Program-made: the position numbers and the translations under genes | Shown here: positions 19,469 through 61,925 of the stretch, one piece after another | Layout of the letters: the number at the start of each line of letters is the position of its first letter | How positions within the stretch are numbered: the first letter of the stretch is position 1 | The notes under the pieces: generated by a model | The model's input: only the letters and a program-made list of their open reading frames with translations | Database searches by the model: none | Told to the model about the DNA's origin: nothing | Source of the DNA: Mycolicibacterium litorale | Lineage (GTDB): Bacteria > Actinomycetota > Actinomycetes > Mycobacteriales > Mycobacteriaceae | Length of the DNA: 64,000 nt | Assembly: GCF_014218295.1 (NCBI RefSeq) | Contig: NZ_AP023287.1 | Location: forward strand, 3,658,001 to 3,722,000 | Reading direction: 5' to 3'

Positions 19469-21055
<1,587 letters not shown>

Positions 21056-21061
21056 GTGGTA

Positions 21062-21079
21062 TGTTAATCACGATTAACA
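21062..21079. promoter_or_regulatory. TetR-type operator 2, near-perfect palindrome
   Basis: TGTTAATCACGATTAACA matches its own reverse complement at 16 of 18 positions. Its centre is 25 bp from that of operator 1. It overlaps a TATGTT (21060-21065) that could be the -10 box of the divergent regulator, which would give autoregulation. Confidence 0.75.
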
Positions 21080-21112: not shown

Positions 21113-21727
21113 ATGGCGTCGACGTCCATCGCGAACACCCGCCGCAGCCAGGCGAAGTCGGACCGACGCGGCCAGCTGATCGCCGCGGCGGAACGGCTCG
21201 TCGCCGAGAAGGGCTATCTGGCGGTCCGGCTGGAGGACATCGGCGCCGCGGTCGGGGTGAGCGGGCCGGCGATCTACCGGCACTTCCCCAACAAGGAGGC
21301 GCTGCTGGTCGAACTGCTGGTGGGCATCAGCACCCGGTTGCTCGCCGGGGCGCGTGAGGTGCTGGACCGGTCCGCCGACGCGGCGGCCGCCCTCGACGGG
21401 CTGATCGACTTCCACCTCGACTTCGCACTCGGCGAGTCGGATCTCATCCGCATCCAGGACCGTGACCTCGGCCACCTGCCCGACCCCGCCAAACGGCAGG
21501 TGCGCCGCGCGCAGCGGCAGTACGTCGAGATCTGGGTCGAGGTGTTGCGCGAGGTGCATTCCGGTCTCGACGAGGCGCACGCCCGGTTGATGGCCCACGC
21601 GGCGTTCGGTCTCCTCAACTCGACCCCGCACAGCGTCAAGCCCGGCACCAACAAAACGGCCGAGGCCGGCTCGCGCACTGTCCTGCGGGAGATGACAGTG
21701 GCGGCGCTGGCCTCGGCCGCTCGTTGA
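21113..21727 (+). CDS. bkaR: TetR-family repressor of branched-chain keto acid genes, BkaR type
   Basis: A 204-residue regulator with an N-terminal TetR helix-turn-helix (LIAAAERLVAEKGYLAVRLE, then VGVSGPAIYRHFPNKEALL at about residues 50-68) and a C-terminal TetR_C ligand domain. It is divergent from accD1, the arrangement of Rv2506 (BkaR), a known repressor of the M. tuberculosis leucine/branched-chain locus. The two palindromes in the shared 79-bp gap are its likely sites. The ligand is presumably a pathway acyl-CoA, which is not established here. Confidence 0.88.
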   Translation: MASTSIANTRRSQAKSDRRGQLIAAAERLVAEKGYLAVRLEDIGAAVGVSGPAIYRHFPNKEALLVELLVGISTRLLAGAREVLDRSADAAAALDGLIDFHLDFALGESDLIRIQDRDLGHLPDPAKRQVRRAQRQYVEIWVEVLREVHSGLDEAHARLMAHAAFGLLNSTPHSVKPGTNKTAEAGSRTVLREMTVAALASAAR

Positions 21728-48423: not shown

Positions 48424-49035
48424 TCACACGGGGTCGAAGGACGAGATCAGCCAGGTGCCGTCCACCTTGGTCATTCCGACCTTGATACTGCTCGAGGCGA
48501 ATGCGCCGTCCGGGTTCTCGGTGCTGGTGGTGGCCTGGTTGACGAACAGCAACGCGACCGCCGACTCCGGCGTGATCTCCGACATCGCGGCCTGCGCGAC
48601 CGTCGCCTCGGTCTTCACCGACTTCTGTTTGGCAGCCGGCGCGACCACTTTCTCGGTGAAGTCGGTGTAGTAGTCCAGGAAGTCACCGGTGAGCCGCGAC
48701 TTCGCCGTCGCAAAATCCGCGTCCAGCGTCTCGGGCGCATAGGACAGCAGCGCGACCGTACCGTCCCTGGCCGCATCGAGCGCCACCCGGGACGCGTCGG
48801 CGTCGGTCTGCTCGTCGACTCGGTACTGGAAGAAGTACAGCCACCCGGCCGCGGACGCCGCCGCGAGGACGACGGCTACCGCCGCGACGGGGACGATCCA
48901 CCGGCGCGCACGGCGAGCGGGCCGGGCCGGTTCGGCCGGTTCGGCCGGTTCGGCCGGTTCTGCCGCGGATTGCTCGGTCTCGTCGACGTCGGCCTGCGAG
49001 TTGTCGTCGGCTTGCGAGTTGTCGTTGTCGGTCAC
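48424..49035 (-). CDS. Orphan Mce-associated membrane protein (Omam), shorter member
   Basis: A 203-residue protein: an acidic N-terminus with repeated Ala-Glu-Pro, one transmembrane helix (WIVPVAAVAVVLAAASAAGW, residues about 46-65), and a periplasmic beta-rich domain of the Mas/VirB8-like type (RVALDAARDGTVALLSYAPE...DFLDYYTDFTEKVVAPAA). Size and pairing match Rv1362c. Orphan Mas proteins stabilise MCE lipid transporters. The GTG start overlaps the stop of the companion gene (GTGA), so the two are co-translated. Confidence 0.87.
   Translation of the reverse strand: MTDNDNSQADDNSQADVDETEQSAAEPAEPAEPAEPARPARRARRWIVPVAAVAVVLAAASAAGWLYFFQYRVDEQTDADASRVALDAARDGTVALLSYAPETLDADFATAKSRLTGDFLDYYTDFTEKVVAPAAKQKSVKTEATVAQAAMSEITPESAVALLFVNQATTSTENPDGAFASSSIKVGMTKVDGTWLISSFDPV
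48927..48962 (-). repeat. 9-bp tandem repeat coding Ala-Glu-Pro units
   Basis: About four copies of a GGTTCGGCC unit encode repeated AEP in the acidic N-terminus of the shorter Mas protein. Exact units imply recent expansion. Confidence 0.7.
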
Positions 49036-49901
49036 GGCGCGAACTCCACCTTCGACATCTTGATCCGGTCACCGTCGCGGACCACGTCCACGATCAGCCG
49101 CCAGGTGCGGGGGTCCTGCTTAGCACCGGTCTCGTTGGTGATCCTCGAGGTCGCCGCGACCAGCACCACCGCCGAGTCGTCGGTCATCGACTGCACTGCG
49201 GTCGCGTTCACGTTGGCCTCGGTGATCACCTTCGACCGCTCCGCCACCGTGGTGAAATCCTGGGCGCTGGCTTCGAAGTCCTCTTTGAACTGCCCGGCCG
49301 CGTTGTCGATGATGCGCTGCACGTCGTCCTTGGCGGTGCTGAAGTTCAGCGACATCAGCGTGACGACGCCCTGTCGTGCGGCCGCAGCGAATTCGGCGGC
49401 ACGCTGCTGTTCGGCCTGCGCCTGACGGTGGTGGACGACCATCAACGCGCTGAGGGCCAGCAGGGCGATGGTGGCGACCGCGGCGAAGCCGACTCCGAGC
49501 GCCCGCCACCGCACCCGGCGGGGCCGCGGGATCCGTCGGCGGACCGGCGCGGCGTCGGACTGTCCCTGCTCCCCGGCGTTGTCGTCGACGGTCTCGACGG
49601 TCTCGACAGTCTCGGCGTCGTCGACCGTGGCGGAATCGACGGACTCCGTGGTGACCGGCGTGGCCTCCGGCGCCTCGACGCGGGCCTTCTCGGCGACCGC
49701 GGCCTGCGCCTCCCGGCGCAGGCGCAGGGCGCGCGCACGCGCGCGGGCGGCCGACGCGACGGCCTCCGCCTCGGCGGCCTCGGCCTCGGCTTCCTCGGCG
49801 CGGGCCAGTACGTCGTCGATGGCGGCGAGATCGGCGTCGGCGGTCGGGTCGTCGACCCGGTCCCCGTCGAGCACCGATGAGGGTCGCTTGCGGAAAGCCA
49901 C
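49032..49901 (-). CDS. Orphan Mce-associated membrane protein (Omam), longer member
   Basis: A 289-residue protein: residues about 20-75 are an Ala/Glu coiled-coil (DDVLARAEEAEAEAAEAEAV), then an acidic linker, one transmembrane helix (GVGFAAVATIALLALSALMV), and a Mas-type exported domain (GVVTLMSLNFSTAKDDVQRI). It corresponds to Rv1363c by layout and partner. The GTG at 49901 has AAGGAGG four bases upstream; an earlier ATG at 49946 lies in an operator-like palindrome and is rejected. No mce genes are adjacent; the nearest MCE gene is 14 kb away. Two palindromes lie in front. Confidence 0.87.
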   Translation of the reverse strand: MAFRKRPSSVLDGDRVDDPTADADLAAIDDVLARAEEAEAEAAEAEAVASAARARARALRLRREAQAAVAEKARVEAPEATPVTTESVDSATVDDAETVETVETVDDNAGEQGQSDAAPVRRRIPRPRRVRWRALGVGFAAVATIALLALSALMVVHHRQAQAEQQRAAEFAAAARQGVVTLMSLNFSTAKDDVQRIIDNAAGQFKEDFEASAQDFTTVAERSKVITEANVNATAVQSMTDDSAVVLVAATSRITNETGAKQDPRTWRLIVDVVRDGDRIKMSKVEFAP

Positions 49902-49935: not shown

Positions 49936-49950
49936 GAGAATGCCATTACC
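49936..49950. promoter_or_regulatory. GAGAAT-family operator A
   Basis: GAGAATGCCATTACC is an imperfect palindrome 35 bp before the Mas pair and belongs to the GAGAATGnCATTCTC-like motif seen at five promoters here. Confidence 0.6.
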
Positions 49951-50014
49951 TGTTCAGGATATCGCCGCGACGATACCTCATGTCCGAATCGGTGCAGAAG
50001 GGCGTTTTGCCAGC

Positions 50015-50029
50015 GGAAATGTCATTTCC
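50015..50029. promoter_or_regulatory. GAGAAT-family operator B
   Basis: GGAAATG-T-CATTTCC is a perfect palindrome with 7-bp arms, 114 bp before the Mas pair and 16 bp after the ligase stop. It differs from the other sites by A to G in the outer arms. Confidence 0.55.
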
Positions 50030-50044
50030 GCGCTGGGCACCCGC

Positions 50045-51514
50045 TCAGTGCAATCGATCCTTCATCACCTTCCCGGTGGCGTTCAGCGGCAGCTCGTCGC
50101 GGAACTCGACGTAGCGCGGCACCTTGTACCCGGCCATCCTGTCGCGGGCCCAGCCAATCAGATCCTCGGCGCTCACACGGGCGTTCGGGTCTTTTCGCAC
50201 GACGAACGCCTTCCCCACCTGTCCGAGCCGTTCGTCGTCCACACCGATCACGGCGACCTGGGCGACGGCCGGATGCTCGAGCAGGAAGCCCTCGATCTCG
50301 GCCGGATAGGCGTTGAAGCCGCCGACGATGAACATGTCCTTCTTGCGGCCGACGATGCGCAGCCGCCCGGCGCCGTCGAGGGTGCCGAGGTCGCCCGTGT
50401 GCAACCAGCCCTCGGCGTCGATGGCTTCGGCGGTCGCGTCCGGATCGTCGAGGTACCCCTGCATGACGCTGTACCCGCGCACCAGTACCTCACCGTCGTC
50501 GGCGATGCGCACCTCGACGCCGTCGCAGGCGGTGCCCACCGTGGTGGCGATGTCGGTGAACGAATCCCCGGGCCGCGACAGCGTGGCCGTGCCCGCCTCG
50601 GTGAGGCCGTAGCCGGTCGCCAGCGTCTGGAACGGCAGTTCCTGCAGGACGCGGCGGACCAGCTCGACCGGGATGTCGGCCGCGCCGGTGACACCGGCCC
50701 GCAGGGTGGCGAGCTTGGCCTTGTCCTCGACCGCCAGCAGCGAGTGGTACAGCGTCGGCGGGCCCGGCAGCATCGTGATGCGCTCGCCTGCGATCAGGTC
50801 CACGACGCGGTCGACGTCGAACACCGCGACCGGCAGCATCGTCGCGCCGCGGATGAACGAGGCGATCAGCCCGGCCTTGTAGCCGAACGTGTGGAAGTAG
50901 GGGTTCACCATCAGATAGCGGTCACCCCGCCGCAGGTCGGCGAGGTCGCACCACTCCCGGTAGAGCCGCAGGTTCTGCCGGTGGTTCATCATCACACCCT
51001 TCGGCCGGCCGGTCGTCCCGGAGGTGAAGATGATGTCGGAGACGTCGGAGCCCTCGACGCGTCGCTCGAAAGGGCCTGCGCTGGAGAGGAAGTCGGATTT
51101 GAGGTCGATGACCGGCGGCACCGGCCCCGGCATCGAGGAGGGCAACGTGAAGTCCTGGTCGAGGAAACCCTGCTGGACGAGCACCGCTTTGGCACCACTG
51201 CGCCCGATGACGTCGGCCGCTTCCTCGGTCTTGAAGCGGGTGTTGACCGGCACCAGCACACCGCCCGCGGTCAGCAGCCCGAAGGCGGCGATGATCCACT
51301 CGGCGGAGTTGGGCGCCCAGATCGCCGCGCGGTCGCCCTTGTCGATGCCGAGTTCGGCGAATGCACCTGCCGCACAGCGGATCCGGTTCACCAGCTGCGC
51401 GAAGGACAGGCGCAGCGGACCGTCGACGACCGCTTCCGCGTCGCCGAACCGGTCCGCTGCGCTGCAGACCATCTCGGGGATGGTCTGCCACTGATCGATT
51501 GCGCCACTTCTCAT
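50045..51514 (-). CDS. Acyl-CoA ligase, FadD3-like
   Basis: A 489-residue AMP-forming ligase that activates a carboxylate to its CoA ester. Motifs in order: P-loop TSGTTGRPKGVMMNH, TGYGLTEAG, GWLHTGDLG, GGFNAYPAEIE and the C-terminal catalytic lysine in NATGKVMKD. Length and sequence style are close to FadD3, which in steroid degradation activates a propionyl side chain; the substrate here need not be a steroid. It lies 46 bp downstream of the amidohydrolase on the same strand, so the two form one transcription unit behind operator C. Confidence 0.85.
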   Translation of the reverse strand: MRSGAIDQWQTIPEMVCSAADRFGDAEAVVDGPLRLSFAQLVNRIRCAAGAFAELGIDKGDRAAIWAPNSAEWIIAAFGLLTAGGVLVPVNTRFKTEEAADVIGRSGAKAVLVQQGFLDQDFTLPSSMPGPVPPVIDLKSDFLSSAGPFERRVEGSDVSDIIFTSGTTGRPKGVMMNHRQNLRLYREWCDLADLRRGDRYLMVNPYFHTFGYKAGLIASFIRGATMLPVAVFDVDRVVDLIAGERITMLPGPPTLYHSLLAVEDKAKLATLRAGVTGAADIPVELVRRVLQELPFQTLATGYGLTEAGTATLSRPGDSFTDIATTVGTACDGVEVRIADDGEVLVRGYSVMQGYLDDPDATAEAIDAEGWLHTGDLGTLDGAGRLRIVGRKKDMFIVGGFNAYPAEIEGFLLEHPAVAQVAVIGVDDERLGQVGKAFVVRKDPNARVSAEDLIGWARDRMAGYKVPRYVEFRDELPLNATGKVMKDRLH

Positions 51515-51560
51515 CGGGCGCGGGGGGCCCGTGATCGTCGCAGCGCGGGTAGCGGGTACG

Positions 51561-52751
51561 TCACGTCGTGACGAGACGTCCCAGATTGCCGCCCATGATC
51601 TTGGCCTGGTCCTCGACCGAGAGGTGCTCGAGTGCGGTCACGTAGTGCGTCGGCTCCGCGAGCCCTTCGGGATGGGGCCAGTCCGACCCGTAGAGCACCT
51701 GGTCCACGCCGATCAGGTTGATCAGGTCGTCGATGCCCTCCTCGTAGAACGGGCTGACGTAGATGCGGTTCTTGATCTCCTCCATCGGATTGCCGAGGAA
51801 CGCCTCGGGGGCCTTCTTGTAGACCTCGGCCATGGAGTCGAGCAGCGGGAACATCCACTTCGACCCGGCTTCCACGATGCCGACCTTGAGCTTCGGGAAG
51901 CGGAACAGCGCACCGTGGATCACCCAGGAGGCCACCGCATCCTGGATCGGGCGCCACTCGTTGAGGATCGACATCGCGTTGGTCTGGAACGGCAGCATCT
52001 CCTGGGCCTTGCCGTCCCACTCGGAGGTGTAGCGCGAGTAGCCACTGTCCGACGAGTGCATGCCGACGAAGATGTCGTGGTGCACGACCCGCTCCCAGAA
52101 CGGATCGAATTCCGGCAGGGCGAAGGATCGCGGGCCGCGGAAGCCGGGCACCGGTGCGGGACGGATCAGGATGGCCCGGGCACCGCGCTTGACCGCCCAT
52201 TCGAGCTCCTCGATCGCCTTCTCGACGATCGGCAGCGTGATGACCGGGGTGGTGAAGATGCGGTTCTGGTAGTTGAAGCCCCAGACCTCGTCCAGCCACT
52301 GGTTGAGCGCGTGGATCAGCACGTGGATCGCCACGGGATCGTCGGACAGCCGCTCCTCGATGAGGCTGGCCAGCGTCGGGAACATCAGGCTGCGGTCGAC
52401 GCCCAGCTCGTCCATCACCTTGATGCGGGGTTCGGGTTCGAAGAAGGCGGGGATGGCCTTCATCGGCTCACCGAACAGCTCGCGCTTGCTCTTGCCGTCG
52501 GGGTTGCCGAACTTGAAGTACTCCTCCCACGCGCCCGGTTTGGCGACGACCGAGAAGGTCGGGTTCGGGATGTAGTTGCTGATCTGACCCTTCAGCGCGA
52601 TCTTCGTCCGGCCGTTGACCTCGACGTACTGGACGACGTCCTTGTACTCCTTCGGGAGGTACTTGGTCATCGCCTCCGGCGGCTCGTAGAGATGGTTGTC
52701 CGCGTCGAACAGCGGAAACGGTATGTCGACCCGGTGCGACAGTTGCCCCAT
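51561..52751 (-). CDS. Amidohydrolase_2 family metal-dependent hydrolase/decarboxylase
   Basis: A 396-residue TIM-barrel protein. DADNHLYEPP at residues 16-25 gives the N-terminal metal ligands and YGSDWPHPEG near residue 365 the C-terminal Asp and His, both typical of the ACMSD/amidohydrolase_2 family. Such enzymes decarboxylate or hydrolyse ring-cleavage products and are widespread in mycobacterial steroid and aromatic gene clusters. The gene is first in the pair with the FadD3-like ligase. Operator C lies 23 bp in front of the ATG, so transcription should be repressed by whatever binds it. The substrate is unknown. Confidence 0.87.
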   Translation of the reverse strand: MGQLSHRVDIPFPLFDADNHLYEPPEAMTKYLPKEYKDVVQYVEVNGRTKIALKGQISNYIPNPTFSVVAKPGAWEEYFKFGNPDGKSKRELFGEPMKAIPAFFEPEPRIKVMDELGVDRSLMFPTLASLIEERLSDDPVAIHVLIHALNQWLDEVWGFNYQNRIFTTPVITLPIVEKAIEELEWAVKRGARAILIRPAPVPGFRGPRSFALPEFDPFWERVVHHDIFVGMHSSDSGYSRYTSEWDGKAQEMLPFQTNAMSILNEWRPIQDAVASWVIHGALFRFPKLKVGIVEAGSKWMFPLLDSMAEVYKKAPEAFLGNPMEEIKNRIYVSPFYEEGIDDLINLIGVDQVLYGSDWPHPEGLAEPTHYVTALEHLSVEDQAKIMGGNLGRLVTT

Positions 52752-52773
52752 GAAACACTCCTTTTCTTATTGC

Positions 52774-52788
52774 GAGAATCGTATTCTC
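52774..52788. promoter_or_regulatory. GAGAAT-family operator C, perfect palindrome
   Basis: GAGAAT-CGT-ATTCTC has perfect 6-bp arms and a 3-bp spacer. It lies 23 bp upstream of the amidohydrolase start and touches the stop of the next ligase. It is the best site of the motif family. Confidence 0.75.
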
Positions 52789-54361
52789 AATTCGCGACGG
52801 CTGCAACGCCCTGCTGTGCGGCGCGGTGCACCTGCTGTCGGATGAGGACCTTCTGCACCTTGCCGCTGGCGGTCCTCGGGTAGTCCTGTCCGTCGGGGAC
52901 ACGGTGCAGTTCCTCGGGCCACTTCTGCCTGGCCACGCCGGCGCGTTCGAAGTGGACCCGTACGTCGTCGAGGGTCGGCATCGCGTGCCCGCTGCGGATG
53001 CGCAGCACCGCGGCGGCGTGCTCGCCGAGACGCGGGTCCGGCCCGGAGACCACCACCGCCTCGGCGACGGCAGGCATGCTCAGCAGCACCTCTTCGACCT
53101 CGAGCGCACTGATGTTCTCGCCGCCGCGGATGATCACGTCGGCCTTGCGGTCGGTGATGGTGAGGTATCCGTCCTCGTCGAGAACGCCGACGTCTCCGGT
53201 GTGGTACCAGCCGTCGTCGTCGAACGCCTTCGCCGTCAGCGCGTCATCGGTGTAGCCGAGGCACAGATCGGGTCCGCGAGACAAGATCTCGCCGTCCTCA
53301 CCGAGCTTGATCTCGACACCGGGCCGACAGTTGCCGTCGGTGTAGAGCCGCTTGGCCTCGGGCGCATCCGGGCCTGATCCCGTGATCGAGGGATGTTCGG
53401 TGCTGCCGTAGGAGCGGAACACGAACAGTCCGAGGTCGGCCAACCGCCGCGTCACGGCCGCGGGAACCGTCGAGCCGCCGAGGCCGACCGTCGAGAAGCG
53501 TGCCACGTGGGCGTCGGTGCAGTCGGGGTGATCGAGCAGGCTGGTGACGAAGTAGGGCGGCCCGCCGCCGATCGACAACCCCTCGGTCTCCATCAGCGCG
53601 AGCACCTTGCCGGGATCCCAGACGTCGCACAGGTCGATCGGCGCGTTCTCCAGCACGGGGATCAGGAACGCGCCGACCATCCCGATGAAGTGCCCGACCG
53701 GTGTGGCCGTCAGTTGGCGGCCACGGTCGGGTGGGTAGTTGGCCAGCAACTGGCGCGTCTCGAATCCCAGGGTCTGGTGGCTGTGGACGACGCCCTTGGG
53801 GTCACGGGTGGTTCCCGAGGTGAACGCGATGAGGGCGGGGCCCGCCGGATCGGTGTGGAGCGTCGCCGACATCGGCTCTTCGTCGAAGAGGTCCTCGAAG
53901 CTGGTCTGCCCGACCAGTCCGACGATCGGGACGTCGGCGCACAGATCCGGCTGAAACGTCATGCGGCCGAACTCCGCCGTGGTGATGAACACCTTCGGCC
54001 GTGCGGTGGCGAGGATGTGGCCGAGTTCCTTGCGGCCGTAGAAGTGCACGATCGGCACCACCACCGCGCCGAGGAACGCCGACGCCCAGAACGTCATCGC
54101 CGCCTCTGCCCAGTTCGGCAGCTGGAAGGCGATGACATCGCCCGGGCCGACACCACGCCGGCGCAGGCCGGCCGCGAGCCGGCGAGCCTGGGCTTCCACG
54201 TCACCGAAGGTGCCGCGGTACGGACGCAGCTCGGAGTGCACGTAGAAGCCTGTGTCCGGCCCCGTCGCCAGATGCCGCGCCAGGAGTTCGCCGAGCGTTT
54301 CGGGCGTCCACCACCCCTCGCGCTCGTACCGTTCGATCAGCTCGACCGGAATGTTGCGCAT
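52787..54361 (-). CDS. AMP-forming acyl-CoA ligase, cyclohexanecarboxylate/FadD-like
   Basis: A 524-residue ligase, sequence-distinct from the neighbouring FadD3-like one. The P-loop is TSGTTRDPKGVVHSH (Arg-Asp in place of Gly-Arg), followed by RSYGSTEHPS, GWYHTGDVG, RGGENISALEVEE and the catalytic lysine in TASGKVQK. It begins MRNIPVELIERYER, usual for ligases that act on cyclic or branched acids. ATG 54361 is used; a TTG at 54382 is possible. It is divergent from the crotonase gene over operator D. Two different ligases imply at least two CoA activation steps. Confidence 0.86.
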   Translation of the reverse strand: MRNIPVELIERYEREGWWTPETLGELLARHLATGPDTGFYVHSELRPYRGTFGDVEAQARRLAAGLRRRGVGPGDVIAFQLPNWAEAAMTFWASAFLGAVVVPIVHFYGRKELGHILATARPKVFITTAEFGRMTFQPDLCADVPIVGLVGQTSFEDLFDEEPMSATLHTDPAGPALIAFTSGTTRDPKGVVHSHQTLGFETRQLLANYPPDRGRQLTATPVGHFIGMVGAFLIPVLENAPIDLCDVWDPGKVLALMETEGLSIGGGPPYFVTSLLDHPDCTDAHVARFSTVGLGGSTVPAAVTRRLADLGLFVFRSYGSTEHPSITGSGPDAPEAKRLYTDGNCRPGVEIKLGEDGEILSRGPDLCLGYTDDALTAKAFDDDGWYHTGDVGVLDEDGYLTITDRKADVIIRGGENISALEVEEVLLSMPAVAEAVVVSGPDPRLGEHAAAVLRIRSGHAMPTLDDVRVHFERAGVARQKWPEELHRVPDGQDYPRTASGKVQKVLIRQQVHRAAQQGVAAVAN

Positions 54362-54434
54362 GTTCCCCAAACCGCATCCCAACTGTCGGCGGCGCGCGGT
54401 GCCCCGCCGCCGTCACCACACCGGCGCCATTGTC

Positions 54435-54471
54435 GGTGATGTTATTCTCCACAACCGAGAATGCCAATACC
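54435..54471. promoter_or_regulatory. GAGAAT-family operator D, probably double
   Basis: One half-conserved site (54435-54449, right arm ATTCTC) and one site GAGAATGCCAATACC (54457-54471) lie 22 bp apart, centre to centre, between the divergent ligase and crotonase starts. The ATTCTC and GAGAAT units also form an inverted pair with a 7-bp gap, the same as at operator E. Confidence 0.6.
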
Positions 54472-54489
54472 GGACCGGGAGAACCGCTG

Positions 54490-55206
54490 ATGGTCGACCT
54501 TGACATCGAGGACGGTCTGGCCGTCATCACCATCGATCGCCCGCACGCCCGCAATGCCATCTCGCTGGAGACGATGGGCCAGCTGGAGAAGGCGCTCGAC
54601 GGCGCCGACGGCGCGCGTGCGCTGGTCATCACCGGGGCGGGCGACCGGGCGTTCGTCTCCGGCGGCGACCTCAAGGAGCTGGCGGCGCTGCGCACCGAAC
54701 CCGAGGCCGCCGCGATGGCCTGGCGGATGCGCGGGATCTGCGACCGGATCGCGGAGTTCCCCGGACCCGTCATCGCGGCGGTCAACGGCCACGCGCTGGG
54801 CGGCGGCGCCGAGGTCGCGGTGTCGGCCGACATCCGCCTGGCCGCCGATGACATCAGGATCGGCTTCAACCAGGTCTCGCTGGAGATCATGCCGGCGTGG
54901 GGCGGTGCCGAACGGCTGGCCGCGCTGGTGGGCAAGAGCCGGGCACTGCTGCTCGCCGGTACCGGCCGCATCCTGACCGCGGCGGAGGCATACCAGCTCG
55001 GGCTCGTCGACCACGTACTGCCCAGGGAGAGTTTCGACGAGGGATGGCGAACCATCGCCCGCTCCCTCGCCGGCCGGCCCGCCGGAGAGATCAAACGCGT
55101 CATCGACGGCGTGCCCGCCACCGAGGCGATCGCCGCGTTCGCCCGGCTCTGGGTCGCCGATGCCCACTGGGCCGCGGCCGAGAAGGTCATGAAGCGCCAG
55201 AAGTGA
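54490..55206 (+). CDS. Crotonase-family enoyl-CoA hydratase/isomerase
   Basis: A 238-residue crotonase-fold enzyme with the CoA-binding SGGDLKELAAL and oxyanion GHALGGGAEVAVSADIRLA. The first catalytic glutamate (GGGAEV) is kept, but the second, normally in QPE, is replaced (FNQVSLEIMP), as in several isomerases, hydrolases and dehalogenases of the family. GGGAGA precedes the ATG at 54490. It is divergent from the cyclic-acid ligase over operator D and 110 bp before the DUF35-thiolase operon. The exact reaction is not determined. Confidence 0.85.
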   Translation: MVDLDIEDGLAVITIDRPHARNAISLETMGQLEKALDGADGARALVITGAGDRAFVSGGDLKELAALRTEPEAAAMAWRMRGICDRIAEFPGPVIAAVNGHALGGGAEVAVSADIRLAADDIRIGFNQVSLEIMPAWGGAERLAALVGKSRALLLAGTGRILTAAEAYQLGLVDHVLPRESFDEGWRTIARSLAGRPAGEIKRVIDGVPATEAIAAFARLWVADAHWAAAEKVMKRQK

Positions 55207-55222
55207 CGGGACGGCCGACTCG

Positions 55223-55250
55223 ATTCTCTCTAGACGAGAATGTCATTTCC
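55223..55250. promoter_or_regulatory. GAGAAT-family operator E
   Basis: ATTCTC (55223) and GAGAATGTCATTTCC (55236-55250) lie 66-93 bp before the DUF35 gene, the first of a six-gene operon. The inverted ATTCTC-7 bp-GAGAAT spacing repeats that of operator D. Confidence 0.65.
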
Positions 55251-55315: not shown

Positions 55316-55729
55316 ATGGCGAAGGCGCTCGCGCCCGAGATCTCGACCTGGCCCGAGGACCGACCGCAGTTGATCGGCAGCCGCTGCGCACGCTGCGCGG
55401 CCACCACCTTCCCCGTGCAGGAACGCTGCCCGAGATGCAGCGCCGGGGAGATGACGCAGGTGCTGCTGCCCCGGCGCGGCACGCTCGTCGCCTGGACCAC
55501 CCAGGGCTTCCCGCCCGGCCCGCCCTACAAGGGGCCCACCGGTAAGGACTTCGTGCCGTTCGGGGTGGGGCTGGTCCAACTCGACGACGTGGTGCGGGTC
55601 GAGGGGCGGCTGACCGAGAACGATCCCGACAAGCTCGAGTTCGGAATGCCGGTCGAGTTGACCATGGTGCCGTTCACCAAGGACGAGGACGGCGAGGACG
55701 TCGTCACCTTCGCCTTCCAGCCGATCTGA
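55316..55729 (+). CDS. DUF35 zinc-ribbon/OB-fold protein, thiolase partner
   Basis: A 137-residue protein with an N-terminal zinc ribbon (Cys24, Cys27, Cys38, Cys41 in CARC...CPRC) and a C-terminal OB fold. DUF35 proteins bind and complete the active site of SCP2-type thiolases and related retro-aldolases, as ChsH2 does with Ltp2 in steroid side-chain degradation. The thiolase begins 28 bp later. GGAGG sits seven bases before the ATG at 55316. It heads the operon that follows operator E. Confidence 0.88.
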   Translation: MAKALAPEISTWPEDRPQLIGSRCARCAATTFPVQERCPRCSAGEMTQVLLPRRGTLVAWTTQGFPPGPPYKGPTGKDFVPFGVGLVQLDDVVRVEGRLTENDPDKLEFGMPVELTMVPFTKDEDGEDVVTFAFQPI

Positions 55730-55757: not shown

Positions 55758-56900
55758 ATGAACGACGTAGCCATCATCGGCGTCGGCCTGCACCCGTTCG
55801 GCAGGTTCGACAAGACGGCGATGCAGATGGGCGCCGAAGCGATCCAGTCCGCACTCACCGATGCCAAGCTCGAGTGGAAGGACATCCAGTTCGGCTTCGG
55901 CGGCAGCTACGAGGTGTCCAACCCCGATGCGGTCACCCGGCTGGTGGGCCTGACCGGCATCACCTTCACCAACGTGTTCAACGCCTGCGCCACCGCGGCC
56001 AGCGCCATCCAGCAGACCGCCGACACGATCCGCCTCGGCAAGTACGACATCGGCATCGCGATCGGGTTGGACAAGCATCCGCGCGGTGCGTTCACCGACG
56101 ATCCCGCCAAACTCGCGCTCCCCCAGTGGTACGCGGAGAACGGCCAGTTCGTCACCACGAAGTTCTTCGGGATGAAGGCCAACCACTACCTGCACAGGCA
56201 CGGCATCTCGCAGGCCACGCTGGCCAAGGTCGCGGCCAAGAACTTCCGCAACGGTGCGATCAACCCGAATGCGTTCCGCCGCAAGCCCATCTCGGAGGAC
56301 GAGATCCTCAACTCGACCGTGCTGAACTACCCGCTGACCCAGTACATGTTCTGCGCACCGGACGAGGGTGCGGCCGCGGTGATCATGTGCCGCGGTGACA
56401 TCGCGCACCGCTACACCGACAAGCCGGTGTTCTTGCGGGCCAGTGAGATCCGCACGCGGACCTACGGCGCTTACGAGGTGCACGCGACCTCGGCCCCGCT
56501 CGACGAGGATCCCTCCCCCACCGTCTACGCCGCGCGTGCGGCCTATGAGATCGCCGGTATCGGTCCCGAAGACGTCGACATCGCGCAGTTGCAGGACACC
56601 GACGCCGGCGCCGAGGTCATTCACATGGCCGAAACGGGCCTGTGCGCAGACGGCGAACAGGAGAAGCTGCTTGCCGACGGCGCCACCGAGATCGGCGGCT
56701 CGATCCCGGTCAACACCGACGGCGGGTTGATCGCCAACGGTGAGCCCATCGGCGCGTCCGGTCTGCGACAGGTGCACGAGATCGTGCGGCAGCTGCGCGG
56801 CGAGGCGGGTGAGCGGCAGGTCCCCAGTGAACCGAAAGTCGGTCTGGCGCAGGTGTACGGCGCCCCTGGCACCGCCTCGGCGACCATCCTGTCCGTGTAG
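55758..56900 (+). CDS. Thiolase-superfamily (SCP2/Ltp-like) enzyme
   Basis: A 380-residue thiolase-fold protein. The nucleophile region is FNACATAAS with Cys77. The usual GHPxGxTG is GEPIGASG. Near the C-terminus, where biosynthetic thiolases have a second Cys in CxG, this one has a tyrosine, Tyr367 (QVYGAPG). Replacement of catalytic residues by tyrosine is a feature of the Ltp2-type retro-aldolases that work with DUF35 partners. Because Cys77 is kept, both thiolase and aldolase chemistry are possible. It follows DUF35 directly and precedes the membrane-protein genes by eight bases. Confidence 0.87.
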   Translation: MNDVAIIGVGLHPFGRFDKTAMQMGAEAIQSALTDAKLEWKDIQFGFGGSYEVSNPDAVTRLVGLTGITFTNVFNACATAASAIQQTADTIRLGKYDIGIAIGLDKHPRGAFTDDPAKLALPQWYAENGQFVTTKFFGMKANHYLHRHGISQATLAKVAAKNFRNGAINPNAFRRKPISEDEILNSTVLNYPLTQYMFCAPDEGAAAVIMCRGDIAHRYTDKPVFLRASEIRTRTYGAYEVHATSAPLDEDPSPTVYAARAAYEIAGIGPEDVDIAQLQDTDAGAEVIHMAETGLCADGEQEKLLADGATEIGGSIPVNTDGGLIANGEPIGASGLRQVHEIVRQLRGEAGERQVPSEPKVGLAQVYGAPGTASATILSV

Positions 56901-56908
56901 CCGACACG

Positions 56909-57649
56909 ATGACCACGGTGGCCGGGCCCGCGACGACAGCGTCGGCTGACGTCAGGACACAGACCATCGGCCTGTGGACGGGTCTGTGCGCGGGGGTCGT
57001 CGTTCTGGTCGGATTCCTGGTCTACCCGGGGTTCTTTCCGCCGATGTCGCCGTCGATGCCGGCCGACGAGGTCGCGGCGTTCTACCGCGACAACGCCACG
57101 ATGGTCCGCGCCACGATGATCACCTGGAATCTGGTGGGCATCATGGTGTTGCCACTGTTCATGGTCATCGTCGTGCAGATGAAGCGGATGGCCACGCAGA
57201 GCCACGTGCTGGCCTACTGCTACCTGACCGCCGCTGTGAGCGGTGCGACGATCTTCGCCCTCGCCGACATCTTCTTCCTGGTCGCCGCATTCCGTCCGAA
57301 CCGCAGCCCGGAGCTGGTCCAGCTGCTCAACGACATGGCGTGGATCGTCTTCGTCGCGCCGGTCGGCATGCTGGTGGCCCAGAACCTGTTGCTGGCCTTG
57401 GCCGTTCACCTCGACGCCGGTCCACACCGGGTGTTCCCCCGATGGGTCGGGCCCTTCGCACTGATCACCGGGTTGGCCATGGCGCCCGCCGCGGGTGCCG
57501 CGGCGTTTCCGGACGGTCCCCTCGCCTGGGATGGAGCCGTGTCGTTCTGGCTGCGCAACGGTGCCTTCGTGAGTTTCGTCGTCGTGATGTTCTTCGTCCT
57601 GCGGACAACGCTGCGGCGCCAGGCGGCCGAGGAAGGCGCCACACCGTGA
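56909..57649 (+). CDS. Six-helix membrane protein, paralogue 1
   Basis: A 246-residue protein with six predicted helices. After helix 1 there is a short exported loop (PSMPADEVAAFYRDN) and an internal MKRMATQSH. Conserved points shared with the next gene are MKRMxxxS, AFRPNRSPELVQLL, FPRWVGPF and GPLAWDGAVSFW. I recognise no named family. The gene begins eight bases after the thiolase and its stop overlaps the next start (GTGA). It may anchor a respiratory or catabolic complex; there are no heme-ligand histidine pairs, so it is probably not a cytochrome itself. Confidence 0.8.
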   Translation: MTTVAGPATTASADVRTQTIGLWTGLCAGVVVLVGFLVYPGFFPPMSPSMPADEVAAFYRDNATMVRATMITWNLVGIMVLPLFMVIVVQMKRMATQSHVLAYCYLTAAVSGATIFALADIFFLVAAFRPNRSPELVQLLNDMAWIVFVAPVGMLVAQNLLLALAVHLDAGPHRVFPRWVGPFALITGLAMAPAAGAAAFPDGPLAWDGAVSFWLRNGAFVSFVVVMFFVLRTTLRRQAAEEGATP

Positions 57650-58395
57650 GTGCGCTGCTGTCCGACCGGTCGACGGCACCCGAGCGCACCCGCCCGGCGG
57701 CCAAACGCGACCTCTGGATCGTCTTCTGGATCGTGCCGGCGTTCTACACCACCTTCGGGGCCATCTTCTTCGCCCTGGCGCGGGTGATGCCGCCGCCGCG
57801 ACCGGACGTCACGACGGCGGGCAAGGTCGAGTTCTTCACCGCCCACTCCGCCACCATCCAGCTCGGATTCGGCCTTCTCATCCTGGTCGTCGGGGGCGCC
57901 GGGGTGGCCAACGGCATCGTCGTCTATCACATGAAGCGGATGACGGCGGGTTCCGTATGCGCCTACGTCTACCTGGGCGGCATGGCGGTCGGTGCGCTGC
58001 CGGGCTGTCTGCTGGTCGCGTTCTGCTTCCTCACCGCCGTTTACCGTCCCGGCCGCGACCCCGATCTCCTCGCGCTGCTCTACGATCTCGGCTGTCTGTC
58101 CTACGTGGGATCGCTGGGGTGTTTCACCGCCGCCTATTTCGGCTTCGCGATCGCGATCCTCTATGACCGCAACGGCATCTTCCCGAAATGGCTCGCCTAC
58201 GTGACGGTGTGGCAGATCGTCACCGAGATCATGGCCATCCCGGTCTTCGTCACCACGGCCGGCCCGTTCGCGTGGAACGGGTCGATGTCGTTCTGGACCG
58301 GCACGGTGATCTTCGGGTTCTGGTTGTCCTGCGTGATCTACTTCCTGAAGAAGGCCAACGAACACCAGTCGGCAGACGAGACACCGCTGGACTGA
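57646..58395 (+). CDS. Six-helix membrane protein, paralogue 2
   Basis: A 249-residue protein that aligns with the preceding one over its full length: YHMKRMTAGS, VYRPGRDPDLLALLYD, FPKWLAYVTV and GPFAWNGSMSFW fall at matching places between matching helices. The pair therefore arose by tandem duplication, though identity is now low. The GTG at 57646 overlaps the previous stop, giving translational coupling and probably a one-to-one complex. Function unknown; neighbours suggest a link with the COX III/IV-like pair that follows. Confidence 0.8.
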   Translation: MSALLSDRSTAPERTRPAAKRDLWIVFWIVPAFYTTFGAIFFALARVMPPPRPDVTTAGKVEFFTAHSATIQLGFGLLILVVGGAGVANGIVVYHMKRMTAGSVCAYVYLGGMAVGALPGCLLVAFCFLTAVYRPGRDPDLLALLYDLGCLSYVGSLGCFTAAYFGFAIAILYDRNGIFPKWLAYVTVWQIVTEIMAIPVFVTTAGPFAWNGSMSFWTGTVIFGFWLSCVIYFLKKANEHQSADETPLD

Positions 58396-58400
58396 CGCCG

Positions 58401-58988
58401 ATGACCGAGACCCGCGCCGCGCCGCCCGCCTCTCCCGCCCCACCGGTGACCCACCTGCCGGGTGACGGGGCGATGTGGGTGATGGTGCTGGGCGACCTGG
58501 TCATCTTCGGCGCCTACTTCGTCATCTACATGGTGCACCGGGCGATGGCGCCCGATGCGTTCCTCACCGCCCAGCAGCACCTCAGCCTGACCGCGGGCGT
58601 ACTCAACACCGTTGTGTTGCTCACCAGTTCGTGGTTCGTCGCACGCGCTGTGCTCGCGGCGCGCGCCGGTGATCACACCCGCGCACTGCGCCTCACCTAC
58701 GTCGCGGGCCTGTGTGGCGCCGTCTTCATCGGCATCAAGGTCTACGAGTGGTCGACGAAGATCGCCCAGGGATATTCGCTGGGCAGTGGTGAGTTCTTCG
58801 GCTTCTACTACATGCTCACCGGCGTCCACCTGTTCCACGTCGCCCTCGGCCTGCTGATCCTCGGCATCGTGGGGCGCGAGCTGCGGACCCGGCAGCGCAT
58901 GTCGATGGTCGAATCCGGCGCCACCTACTGGCACATGGTCGATCTGCTCTGGATCGTCATCTTCGCCCTGCTCTACGTGATGAGATGA
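58401..58988 (+). CDS. Heme-copper oxidase subunit III-like protein (NorE type)
   Basis: A 195-residue protein with five predicted helices of the COX3 family: MWVMVLGDLVIFGAYFVIY, the conserved YEWSTKIAQG loop, FYYMLTGVHLFHVALGL and ATYWHMVDLLWIVIFALLY. The short five-helix form resembles NorE, found with nitric-oxide reductases, rather than the CtaE of the aa3 oxidase. Subunit III binds no heme or copper and stabilises catalytic subunits. No subunit I or II gene is in the window. It starts five bases after paralogue 2 and precedes the subunit IV-like gene by three bases. Confidence 0.87.
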   Translation: MTETRAAPPASPAPPVTHLPGDGAMWVMVLGDLVIFGAYFVIYMVHRAMAPDAFLTAQQHLSLTAGVLNTVVLLTSSWFVARAVLAARAGDHTRALRLTYVAGLCGAVFIGIKVYEWSTKIAQGYSLGSGEFFGFYYMLTGVHLFHVALGLLILGIVGRELRTRQRMSMVESGATYWHMVDLLWIVIFALLYVMR

Positions 58989-58991
58989 CCG

Positions 58992-59285
58992 ATGGCGACC
59001 ACACCCTCGCACACCACCGCCCCGCGGCGGGCGATCACCGCGGTCTGGCTGATCCTGGTCGCCATCACCGTGGCGTCGGTGTGGCTGGCACCCGCACACG
59101 TCGACGGGCCGCCGCCGACCGACGCGCGCCTCACGGTGGCGGTCGTCGTGCTGGCAGTGGTCAAGAGCCGCTTGATCATCCGGTACTTCATGGAGGTGCG
59201 TCACGCACCACGCTGGTTGCGGGCATCCACCGACGCCTGGTTGTTCGTGCTGTGGGCCGCGATCCTCGGGGTGTATCTGTGGTGA
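58992..59285 (+). CDS. Prokaryotic cytochrome c oxidase subunit IV-like protein (NorF type)
   Basis: A 97-residue protein with three helices (AVWLILVAITVASVWL, LTVAVVVLAVVKSRLIIRYF and LFVLWAAILGVYLW). The VVKSRLIIRYFMEVRHAPRW segment is typical of the COX4_pro/NorF family, small partners of subunit III. It is the last gene of the operon that begins with DUF35 and ends 20 bp before the convergent TetR gene. Confidence 0.87.
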   Translation: MATTPSHTTAPRRAITAVWLILVAITVASVWLAPAHVDGPPPTDARLTVAVVVLAVVKSRLIIRYFMEVRHAPRWLRASTDAWLFVLWAAILGVYLW

Positions 59286-59305: not shown

Positions 59306-59917
59306 TCAGGCCGGGGAGGCGGTGTCCTCCGGCCGGTAGTCGCCCTCCAGCCGGCGCAGCCACTGTTCGCAGAACGCCCAGGTCTCGGCATGTCCGGCGG
59401 ACATCCCCAGCGCCCGCTCCATCACCAGCACCCGCGACACGCTCGTCGCGAACACCGTCCACACCACGGGCGGGACGTCCGTCACGTCGGCGCCGTAGCG
59501 CTGCAGTGCGGCGGTGAGGACCTTGTTCTGTTCGTCACGGAACCGTTCGGCGTAGTAGGCGATGTCGTCGCGAAGCGCGTGCCGATGGTTGGCCAGGCCC
59601 ATGAACTCCATGGTCAGCCGCGTGGCCGCGGGGTCGGTGCTGAACCGCCACAGCGCCCAGAGGGGTTGCGCGGACTGCAGCACGCGCGCCTGCACTTCCA
59701 GGCCCTGTTCGGCCCTGCGCCGGAACACCGCCGAGAACAGTTCGTCCATGGTGCGGAAGTAGTAGTGCACCAACTGCGGTTTGAGCCCCGCGCGTTCGGC
59801 CACCCGCCGCGACGTCACGGCCGCGTAACCCTCTTCGACCATCATCTGCTCGGCCGCGTCGAGCAGCACACCGCGGTTCTTCGCGTCGGGCGCACCGATC
59901 CTTCGCTGCGAAGCCAT
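59306..59917 (-). CDS. TetR-family transcriptional regulator
   Basis: A 203-residue TetR protein. The helix-turn-helix is GVLLDAAEQMMVEEGYAAVT and ERAGLKPQLVHYYFRTMDEL near residues 45-64; the rest is a ligand-binding helical domain that I cannot assign. The ATG at 59917 has GGAG five bases upstream; a GTG two codons earlier is less likely. It is divergent from the P450 gene over the palindrome at 60024 and convergent with the oxidase-like operon. It could control the P450, itself, or the GAGAAT sites; the P450 palindrome differs in sequence from those. Confidence 0.87.
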   Translation of the reverse strand: MASQRRIGAPDAKNRGVLLDAAEQMMVEEGYAAVTSRRVAERAGLKPQLVHYYFRTMDELFSAVFRRRAEQGLEVQARVLQSAQPLWALWRFSTDPAATRLTMEFMGLANHRHALRDDIAYYAERFRDEQNKVLTAALQRYGADVTDVPPVVWTVFATSVSRVLVMERALGMSAGHAETWAFCEQWLRRLEGDYRPEDTASPA

Positions 59918-60023
59918 CGTCACTCCACCTCCTCACGTCCTGGGCTCCTCGGGTCTGCCCGCGGCACAACAGGAATGGTAGGCGCCGCACCCCAGTCGAC
60001 CTTGACCAAGACTCTACCGCCAT

Positions 60024-60041
60024 GCTAAGCAGGTGCTCAGC
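60024..60041. promoter_or_regulatory. Candidate operator of the TetR/P450 pair
   Basis: GCTAAGCAGGTGCTCAGC matches its reverse complement at 14 of 18 positions, 31 bp before the P450 start and 107 bp before the TetR start. Divergent layout and symmetry make it the likely TetR target. Confidence 0.65.
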
Positions 60042-60071
60042 AACCATGCGCAGGTTCGGGAAGGAACAACC

Positions 60072-61352: not shown

Positions 61353-61400
61353 CGCGGCCCGCATCGCGCCGTTCCGCCGCTACCACACCTCGTTGATTGG

Positions 61401-61406
61401 TATTCT
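61401..61406 (+). promoter_or_regulatory. -10 box of a leaderless promoter
   Basis: TATTCT (TANNNT) ends six bases before the ATG at 61413, so the exported-protein gene would have a leaderless message. It also contains a GAGAAT-type half site (reverse strand), which may be chance. Confidence 0.45.
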
Positions 61407-61412
61407 CCGCCC

Positions 61413-61925
61413 ATGAGAAAGCCGATCTCGCCATGGCGAGCAAGGGTTTTCAGCCCGGGCCGGCGCGCGGCGGGATGCGTCCTGGCCGGCGTCGCACTGC
61501 TGACGGCGGCGACACTCGGCGCTCCGCCGGCGTCGGCGATGTACATGGGCAACTACGCGCTGCACATTCCGGACCGCAGGGATTTCCACACCTGGATCTG
61601 GTCGGCGAACGCACCGTGCCGCTTGGCAGACAACACCAAGCGCACCGACTGCCTGCGGGTGATCACGATACCCCAGCCGATCGCCAAGGCGATCTACTCG
61701 AACGTCGAAGCGACGCTGAATGACGGCCGCTACACGATGGTCATCGACGATCCGTTCGGGCTGCGGTGTGGTGACATCTACTACGGGCCGACCATCCCCA
61801 CCCACGACGTCTACACCTGGGACGCCACGACGTTGACCGGAGAGCTGGTCTCGTCGTTCGGCGCCGGATGTGACGGCGCGCCGGGCGGCCAGCGCGTGTA
61901 TCCCTTCTCCCTGACCAGGATGTGA
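61413..61925 (+). CDS. Exported protein of unknown function
   Basis: A 170-residue secretory protein. A basic N-region (MRKPISPWRARVFSPGRRAA), a hydrophobic core (GCVLAGVALLTAATLGA) and an AxA site (PPASA) give a Sec signal peptide of about 42 residues. The mature part has four cysteines (APCRL, DCLRV, LRCGD, GCDGA), enough for two disulfides, and is rich in aromatic residues. No known domain. The stop overlaps the next start (GTGA), so the two exported proteins are translated together. Confidence 0.8.
   Translation: MRKPISPWRARVFSPGRRAAGCVLAGVALLTAATLGAPPASAMYMGNYALHIPDRRDFHTWIWSANAPCRLADNTKRTDCLRVITIPQPIAKAIYSNVEATLNDGRYTMVIDDPFGLRCGDIYYGPTIPTHDVYTWDATTLTGELVSSFGAGCDGAPGGQRVYPFSLTRM

Follow-up and report, generated by a model that had tools for sequence, protein, structure and literature searches.

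A conserved 15-bp palindrome and a candidate TetR-family repressor of a putative catabolic regulon in Mycobacteriaceae

A 15-bp palindrome, GAGAATnnnATTCTC, with GAGAAT/ATTCTC half-sites around a 3-base spacer, recurs in promoters of catabolic genes of Mycolicibacterium litorale, and very probably it is the operator of a TetR-family repressor encoded at genome positions 3820705-3821358. We studied it in a window of 64,000 nucleotides (positions 3658001-3722000 of the single-contig genome of 5,634,149 bases) and beyond; below, seven-digit positions are those of the genome and shorter ones those of the window. A sequence-only reading of the window had proposed that such sites, together with a GGAAAT/ATTTCC variant, place several neighbouring transcription units under one repressor. 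Every site position that it quoted carries the motif, and the site at 52774 is perfect, as claimed. A common repressor-type site is indeed present in the promoters of the MCE-associated (Mas) pair, the amidohydrolase-FadD3 operon, the ligase/crotonase pair and the DUF35 operon, the variant form included (Table 1).

Clustering and conservation of the palindrome

In the window alone the excess of the motif is modest: 12 matches with at most 3 mismatches, against a mean of 6.6 in shuffled sequence, with 3 of 100 shuffles reaching 12. The analysis covered a larger catabolic region, 3600000-3870000 (270 kb, 4.8% of the chromosome), of which 7.5% is intergenic by gene calls made in this analysis. 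There, all 9 sites with at most one mismatch are intergenic and none is coding; the intergenic and coding counts are 13 and 3 at up to two mismatches, and 23 and 32 at up to three. Permuting the half-sites (59 permutations) gave intergenic means of 0.07 (maximum 1), 0.42 (maximum 3) and 3.9 (maximum 15) at the same three thresholds, and none of the 59 matched the observed intergenic counts. Other spacers (0-8 bases, 3 excepted) yielded no site with at most one mismatch in the region. The whole genome holds 6 perfect sites and 5 with one mismatch, and 9 of these 11 lie within the 270 kb (binomial P 7e-11). The possibility that the motif is equally common at random, raised with the original proposal, was checked by these permutations and genome-wide counts, which show a strong regional excess; the regional clustering and the half-site permutations together reject a chance origin. 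A genome-wide control with the reversed motif (7 matches against 53 at 2 mismatches) was judged unfair and is not relied on, because its count is low for the degenerate form of the motif also in genomes without the regulator.

The sites are placed as operators would be. Seventeen of 19 listed places have a called gene start no more than 75 bases away (crotonase counted from 54490), the exceptions being the korA site (248 bases) and the variant palindrome at 50015 (about 115), and many sites stand between divergent genes. Of the two sites outside the region, one (1889117) is between divergent luciferase-like monooxygenase and crotonase genes, and the other (2044500) is between opposite-strand stretches matching luciferase-like monooxygenases, within overlapping open frames; both look like promoters. 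Since the sites span about 260 kb plus two distant places and recur across the family, the description of the regulon as local does not hold.

Conservation is wide. Perfect sites are found in 166 of the 198 genomes of the genus, and also in other genera, before orthologous genes. A homologue of a gene of the 270-kb region (55% identity or more, start within 400 bp) stands behind 53 of the 65 sites that have one mismatch or none in stretches from 9 genus genomes; for the stretches from 5 genomes of two other genera the figure is 26 of 34. The site at 52774 is perfect in the loci of all 9 genus relatives and stands, again perfect, before the orthologue in all 5 genomes of the two other genera. 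These stretches were chosen for holding perfect sites, and perfect-site counts in them are conditioned on that; they are evidence that sites recur at the same promoters and say nothing about how frequently a promoter retains its site. Retention is better judged from the ligase/crotonase pair and the Mas-side sites, because these were not selected for. All 7 crotonase orthologues found and all 5 ligase orthologues have this pair of imperfect sites in front of them, with the 22-bp distance and 2-4 mismatches per site. Of 8 relatives, 7 have a site with up to 3 mismatches past the end of the FadD3-like gene, at the place expected for the start of Mas, the Mas orthologues themselves being unmatched. 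The GGAAAT/ATTTCC variant, part of the original proposal, is borne out by its recurrence exactly 79 bp from the Mas site in 4 of the 8 relatives, perfect in 3 of them. Homologues of the DUF35 gene have an upstream 3-mismatch site in 3 of 3 cases found, 2 of them at another locus.

Exact GAGAATGCCAATACC, the second site of the ligase/crotonase pair, has 3 copies in the 5.63-Mb genome, every one in a promoter of the 270-kb region, and its sole one-mismatch copy genome-wide is the Mas site at 49936. The GAGAATGTCATTTCC site is preceded at a distance of 22 bp by a weak partner with 4 mismatches (55214-55228).

The candidate repressor and its rivals

The candidate repressor (hereafter TetR 3820705) matches TetR_N (PF00440) with 33.8 bits at a cut-off of 24. 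A survey of the genome, in which 150 of 230 first-look candidates were scored, gave at least 122 TetR_N matches; among the surveyed TetR genes, set against the 11 best sites, only TetR 3820705 has such a site directly in its promoter. Orthologous promoters were compared for the 80 most similar of 405 loci found, all from Mycobacterium or Mycolicibacterium. A perfect site is present upstream of TetR in 80 of 80, at -136 to -139 from the start of the 217-residue form, as compared with 11 of 1448 random 400-base stretches of the same loci. The operator 15-mer is nearly invariant in these orthologues, while the DNA on its upstream side is variable. The stretch from the operator to the TetR start (3820568-3820705; L020:10568-10704) is also strongly conserved, and is probably partly coding, because many database entries begin 22 residues earlier. 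More distant orthologues (genomes G003, G015, G050 and G169) have an upstream site with one mismatch, and in G216 and G241, of another genus, a perfect site lies about 130 bp from TetR. Apart from that of G050, the minus-strand loci among the distant ones were distant paralogues and did not enter this comparison.

Across genomes the motif and this gene occur together. Presence was scored at a best E value below 1e-80 in the genus and at E<=1e-40 in the family search, where all carriers are also below 1e-80. Among the 198 genus genomes 164 have both, 28 neither, 2 the motif only (G039, G139) and 4 the gene only (G050, G082, G169, G196), G050 and G169 being the two with a one-mismatch site before TetR. 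In 230 genomes of other genera there are 44 carriers, from 8 genera, of which 34 have at least two perfect sites, 7 have one and 3 have none; not one of the 186 non-carriers has two. Combined, at least two perfect sites are present in 196 of 212 carriers versus 1 of 216 non-carriers (G139). Fisher P values are 2e-27 (any site, genus) and 5e-32 (two or more sites, outside the genus), and are not to be taken literally because the species share ancestry.

Several observations weigh against this assignment, beginning with that non-independence of related genomes. G196 carries a TetR 74% identical to the candidate and has no perfect site in its genome and none near the gene; G082 (3.2 Mb) has only a decayed site before it; and G291, G394 and G401 carry the gene without a perfect site. 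Conversely, no TetR orthologue was found in G139, which has 8 sites (700 contigs, 93% complete), or in G039, which has one, and a single perfect site occurs in 16 of the 186 genomes outside the genus that lack the gene. TetR has its nearest perfect site behind it in G427 and G340, with a one-mismatch site in front. In M. litorale another TetR gene (3836851-3837510; L021:6851-7510) lies in an apparent operon behind the one-mismatch site 3839258, the korA site is distant from the called start, as given above, and the membership of the mce operon, the mutase and the IclR/hydrolase genes rests in this genome on sites with 2-3 mismatches.

The sequence-only reading had named the TetR gene at 59306, inside the cluster, as a candidate, and within the genus this protein does as well as TetR 3820705: it is present in 162 of 166 motif-positive and 2 of 32 motif-negative genomes at E<=1e-40, a threshold that lets paralogues through. 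With counts of both, motif only, gene only and neither at 162/4/2/30 for 59306 and 164/2/4/28 for 3820705, co-occurrence in the genus cannot choose between the two, because both do equally well, and G139 has 59306 with its 8 sites. Evidence from promoters and from other genera, however, makes it very unlikely that the operator belongs to TetR 59306. Its promoter has no motif site in this genome or in the two relatives examined (L127, L142), and carries in all three a different near-palindrome, GCTAAGCAGGTGCTC. G130 (4 sites), G022 and G057 (1 each) lack 59306 and have TetR 3820705. Outside the genus, G227, G241, G276, G325 and G417 have 2-6 perfect sites and no 59306 match at E<=1e-40; of the 34 genomes there with at least two perfect sites, 4 more have only 42-48% identical, paralogue-like matches and G404 and G247 only partial ones, whereas all 34 have TetR 3820705. 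G300 has 59306 and no site. With no site of its own, a different near-palindrome in its promoter and absence from some multi-site genomes outside the genus, TetR 59306 is probably not the general regulator but a separate local one. GCTAAGCAGGTGCTC, located in the promoter shared by TetR 59306 and the P450 gene at 60072 (59918-60071), is perhaps its operator; in a third relative (L122) the string is not among the best matches at the divergent P450 gene.

It could also be argued that some other regulator binds the motif, TetR 3820705 being merely one target that travels with the cluster. Co-occurrence was compared for two regulators only, 59306 equals the best candidate within the genus, and two further regulators stand behind sites, TetR 3836851 behind a one-mismatch site and the IclR-type gene 3848546 behind a weak one. 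The distribution of such a regulator would, however, have to follow the 212 carrier genomes, in 9 genera, almost exactly, and a palindrome that hardly varies in the promoter of a TetR gene itself usually points to autoregulation, which is known for KstR, KstR2 and BkaR; we regard the explanation by another regulator as improbable. The idea that the sites are operators of one of these three, and so part of a known regulon, is extremely unlikely. Layout and gene types are similar to those of the KstR, KstR2 and BkaR regulons, and four one-mismatch sites of the region (GAGAACnnnATTCTC) resemble the KstR half-site AGAAC, but the KstR and KstR2 palindromes are of 14 bp with a 2-base spacer, while the present sites need a 3-base one (PMC1995591, PMC3068626). 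In the 270 kb the KstR core has no exact intergenic match and differs by 3-5 mismatches from the 9 best sites. The KstR2 operator AnCAAGnnCTTGnT has no exact match there and one intergenic one-mismatch match (3768197), away from the present sites; the only matches to the BkaR operator GTTAnTnnnnAnTAAC with at most one mismatch (3679038 and 3679063) precede another TetR gene, and none falls at the present sites. This operator comparison across the region rejects identity with KstR, KstR2 or BkaR sites. On the KstR model NF033703, TetR 3820705 scores 20.8 bits at a cut-off of 280, and it is likewise below the NCBIfam cut-offs for FasR (33.8 bits; 330), ScbR (37.3; 150) and FadR (27; 200).

The genome also encodes a 34% identical paralogue of TetR 3820705 (2314192-2314749), and relatives of 29-39% identity occur in genomes without it (G006, G091, G147, G194). 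G094 and G079 have two close copies each, 81-82% identical to the one in M. litorale.

Putative members and a proposed mode of action

Sites and genes of the putative regulon are collected in Table 1; members outside the window were assigned by Pfam.

Table 1. Palindromic sites, window genes and putative regulon members (mismatches relative to GAGAATnnnATTCTC)
Feature	Position	Strand	Details
Operator-like site GAGAATGCCATTACC	49936-49950	.	Before Mas pair; 2 mismatches
Variant palindrome GGAAATGTCATTTCC	50015-50029	.	Perfect GGAAAT/ATTTCC form; 79 bp from main Mas site
Operator-like site GAGAATCGTATTCTC	52774-52788	.	Perfect; before amidohydrolase-FadD3 operon
Imperfect site A GGTGATGTTATTCTC	54435-54449	.	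3 mismatches; ligase/crotonase intergenic pair
Imperfect site B GAGAATGCCAATACC	54457-54471	.	3 mismatches; 22 bp from site A
Site GAGAATGTCATTTCC	55236-55250	.	2 mismatches; before DUF35 operon
Mas protein 2	48424-49035	-	Open reading frame; no Pfam match; name from sequence-only reading
Mas protein 1	49032-49901	-	Open reading frame; no Pfam match; name from sequence-only reading
FadD3-family acyl-CoA ligase	50045-51514	-	NF005801, 770 bits, cut-off 657; second gene of amidohydrolase operon
Amidohydrolase (Amidohydro_2)	51561-52751	-	Pfam; PDB relatives 4dzi, PtmU3, DitZ
AMP-binding acyl-CoA ligase	52787-54361	-	Pfam
Crotonase-fold enzyme	54490-55206	+	ECH_1
DUF35/ChsH2 C-terminal-like protein	55316-55729	+	OB_ChsH2_C and zf-ChsH2
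Thiolase-like (lipid-transfer) protein	55758-56900	+	NCBIfam thiolase families, all below cut-off among those listed
Two proteins without Pfam match, then COX3-like and COX4_pro-like	56909-59285	+	PF00510, PF03626; downstream of DUF35 promoter
TetR proposed by sequence-only reading	59306-59917	-	Probably separate local regulator
korAB	site 3605128		1 mismatch; perfect in G030 and G017
Aldehyde dehydrogenase-CoA transferase-thiolase-mce operon	site 3736232		2 mismatches; Pfam: one MlaE, six MlaD
Acyl-CoA dehydrogenase pair/amidohydrolase	site 3742414		Perfect
P450 close to CYP150A6	site 3763288		1 mismatch; PDB 6dcd, E 6e-154
DitZ-like amidohydrolase	site 3811480		1 mismatch; PDB 8uyr, E 3.5e-109
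Carboxymuconolactone-decarboxylase-like and Rieske genes	site 3811480		Divergent from DitZ-like amidohydrolase
TetR/acyl-CoA dehydrogenase pair	site 3820568		Perfect
Candidate TetR	3820705-3821358	+	98.7 kb beyond window; 217 aa, or 239 aa with start 22 codons earlier
Hydrolase operon, also holding another TetR	site 3839258		1 mismatch
IclR-type gene/hydrolase	site 3848435		3 mismatches; perfect before G017 orthologue
Thiolase/dehydrogenase	site 3854591		Perfect
Ligase/ferredoxin	site 3860385		Perfect
B12-dependent mutase pair	sites 3864921 and 3865069		3 mismatches

Upstream of the FadD3-like gene no match has fewer than 4 mismatches, either in this genome or in the 8 relatives, which fits its place as second gene of an operon. 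Two proteins without a Pfam match (56909-58395) sit between the thiolase and the COX3/COX4-like genes. The mce operon, whose own site has 2 mismatches, has an orthologue in G148 with a one-mismatch upstream site, and the mutase orthologues in G427 and G340 have a perfect one. Nearest to the large subunit of this mutase is 2-hydroxyisobutyryl-CoA mutase (4r3u, E 7.7e-150); methylmalonyl-CoA mutase follows closely at 3e-140. Elsewhere in the window, ATTCTC and GAGAAA half-sites at 61393-61429 have the same 22-bp layout as the ligase/crotonase pair; the match was judged too weak to be a site, its second half being inside the start of an open reading frame without a Pfam match (61413-61925).

We propose that a dimer of TetR 3820705 would bind the 15-bp palindrome, usually within 75 bp of a gene start and often with a -10-like TAnnnT hexamer, and would thereby shut the promoter, often in both directions. 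Imperfect sites paired 22 bp apart, that is by two turns of DNA, would bind two dimers, possibly cooperatively, and the repressor would also control its own gene. TAnnnT is the mycobacterial -10 element; across the spacer it is found on at least one strand in 64 of 80 perfect sites, as against about 32% expected from intergenic base frequencies. It is thus probable that the operator overlies the -10 element, which has been reported for KstR too (PMC1995591), with the caveat that in M. litorale itself several sites are without the hexamer.

The repressor would probably be released by a coenzyme A (CoA) thioester of the pathway, and release would switch on uptake and degradation through the mce transporter, amidohydrolases, ligases, acyl-CoA dehydrogenases, Rieske and P450 oxygenases, the acyl-CoA mutase and KorAB. 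The fold predicted for TetR 3820705 from a shallow alignment (17 close sequences; pLDDT, the model's per-residue confidence, 75.6) most resembles that of FadR-type acyl-CoA-responsive TetRs, with YvdT, EthR2 and KstR2 also near the top. This model gives a weak hint of a CoA-thioester inducer, weak because most TetRs share the fold.

As to the substrate, DitZ and PtmU3 are linked to diterpenoids. Taken as a set, the DitZ- and PtmU3-like amidohydrolases, the mce transporter, the carbon-skeleton mutase, the Rieske oxygenases and the several P450s suggest a lipid that is both cyclic and branched; tentatively, the substrate may be one such as a terpenoid. The literature searched for links of CYP150 to terpenes, for DitZ and for cyclic terpenes together with mce gave nothing useful. 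Speculatively, this may be a third large lipid regulon of Mycobacteriaceae beside those of KstR and KstR2, in which an autoregulated TetR would sense a cyclic isoprenoid (diterpenoid-like) CoA thioester and control dedicated mce import, ring oxidation, beta-oxidation, a B12-dependent mutase and KorAB together.

It is its breadth across the family that makes the regulon of interest. If the proposal is right, dozens of catabolic genes of environmental mycobacteria, otherwise annotated singly, would form a single programme open to testing, with its own regulator and readable operator, and an mce transporter of unknown substrate would be tied to a pathway. Whatever lifts the repressor off DNA would give a handle on that substrate, and the operators would provide inducible promoters for work in non-pathogenic mycobacteria.

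Comparison with known regulons

No published description of the regulator or operator was found in the literature searched, most subscription journals being outside its coverage; to that extent the statement of the sequence-only reading that it knew of no described mycobacterial regulon with this motif is upheld. No paper containing the motif string was found, and among the matches listed for the half-site strings there was no description of this regulon. The two GAGAAT strings in PMC4757040 belong to 8-base sites predicted for a different regulator, and PMC4482099 sought palindromes for 30 TetRs, with motifs that are not in letter form in its available text.

Among the closest parallels are three autoregulated TetR repressors. 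BkaR, of branched-chain keto-acid metabolism, is like the candidate an autoregulated mycobacterial TetR with paired palindromes (PMC3920632), but its motif, GTTAnTnnnnAnTAAC, differs. Two exact copies of that motif, at 21038-21078 of the window, closely precede the TetR gene 21113-21727 and make it the probable BkaR orthologue. The model predicted for the candidate has FadR-type acyl-CoA-responsive TetRs of Bacillus and Thermus among its best fold matches, but shares only 16-23% identity with them over the aligned parts. Among the regulators of cholesterol catabolism, KstR2 has a regulon that includes fadD3, and a FadD3-family ligase is a putative target here. KstR2 is likewise an autoregulated TetR with sites in divergent promoters (PMC3068626), but it differs in its motif (AnCAAGnnCTTGnT) and in a regulon of 15 genes and 3 sites. 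KstR, the other cholesterol regulator, shares with the candidate regulon autoregulation, a palindrome partly over the -10 element, a large set of lipid-catabolism genes and conservation in actinomycetes (PMC1995591), and differs in its palindrome (TnnAACnnGTTnnA), its 2-base spacer and the protein itself. Thus, while this regulator and operator were not found in the literature searched, their kind, an autoregulated TetR with a large catabolic regulon, is already known and is of the KstR type.

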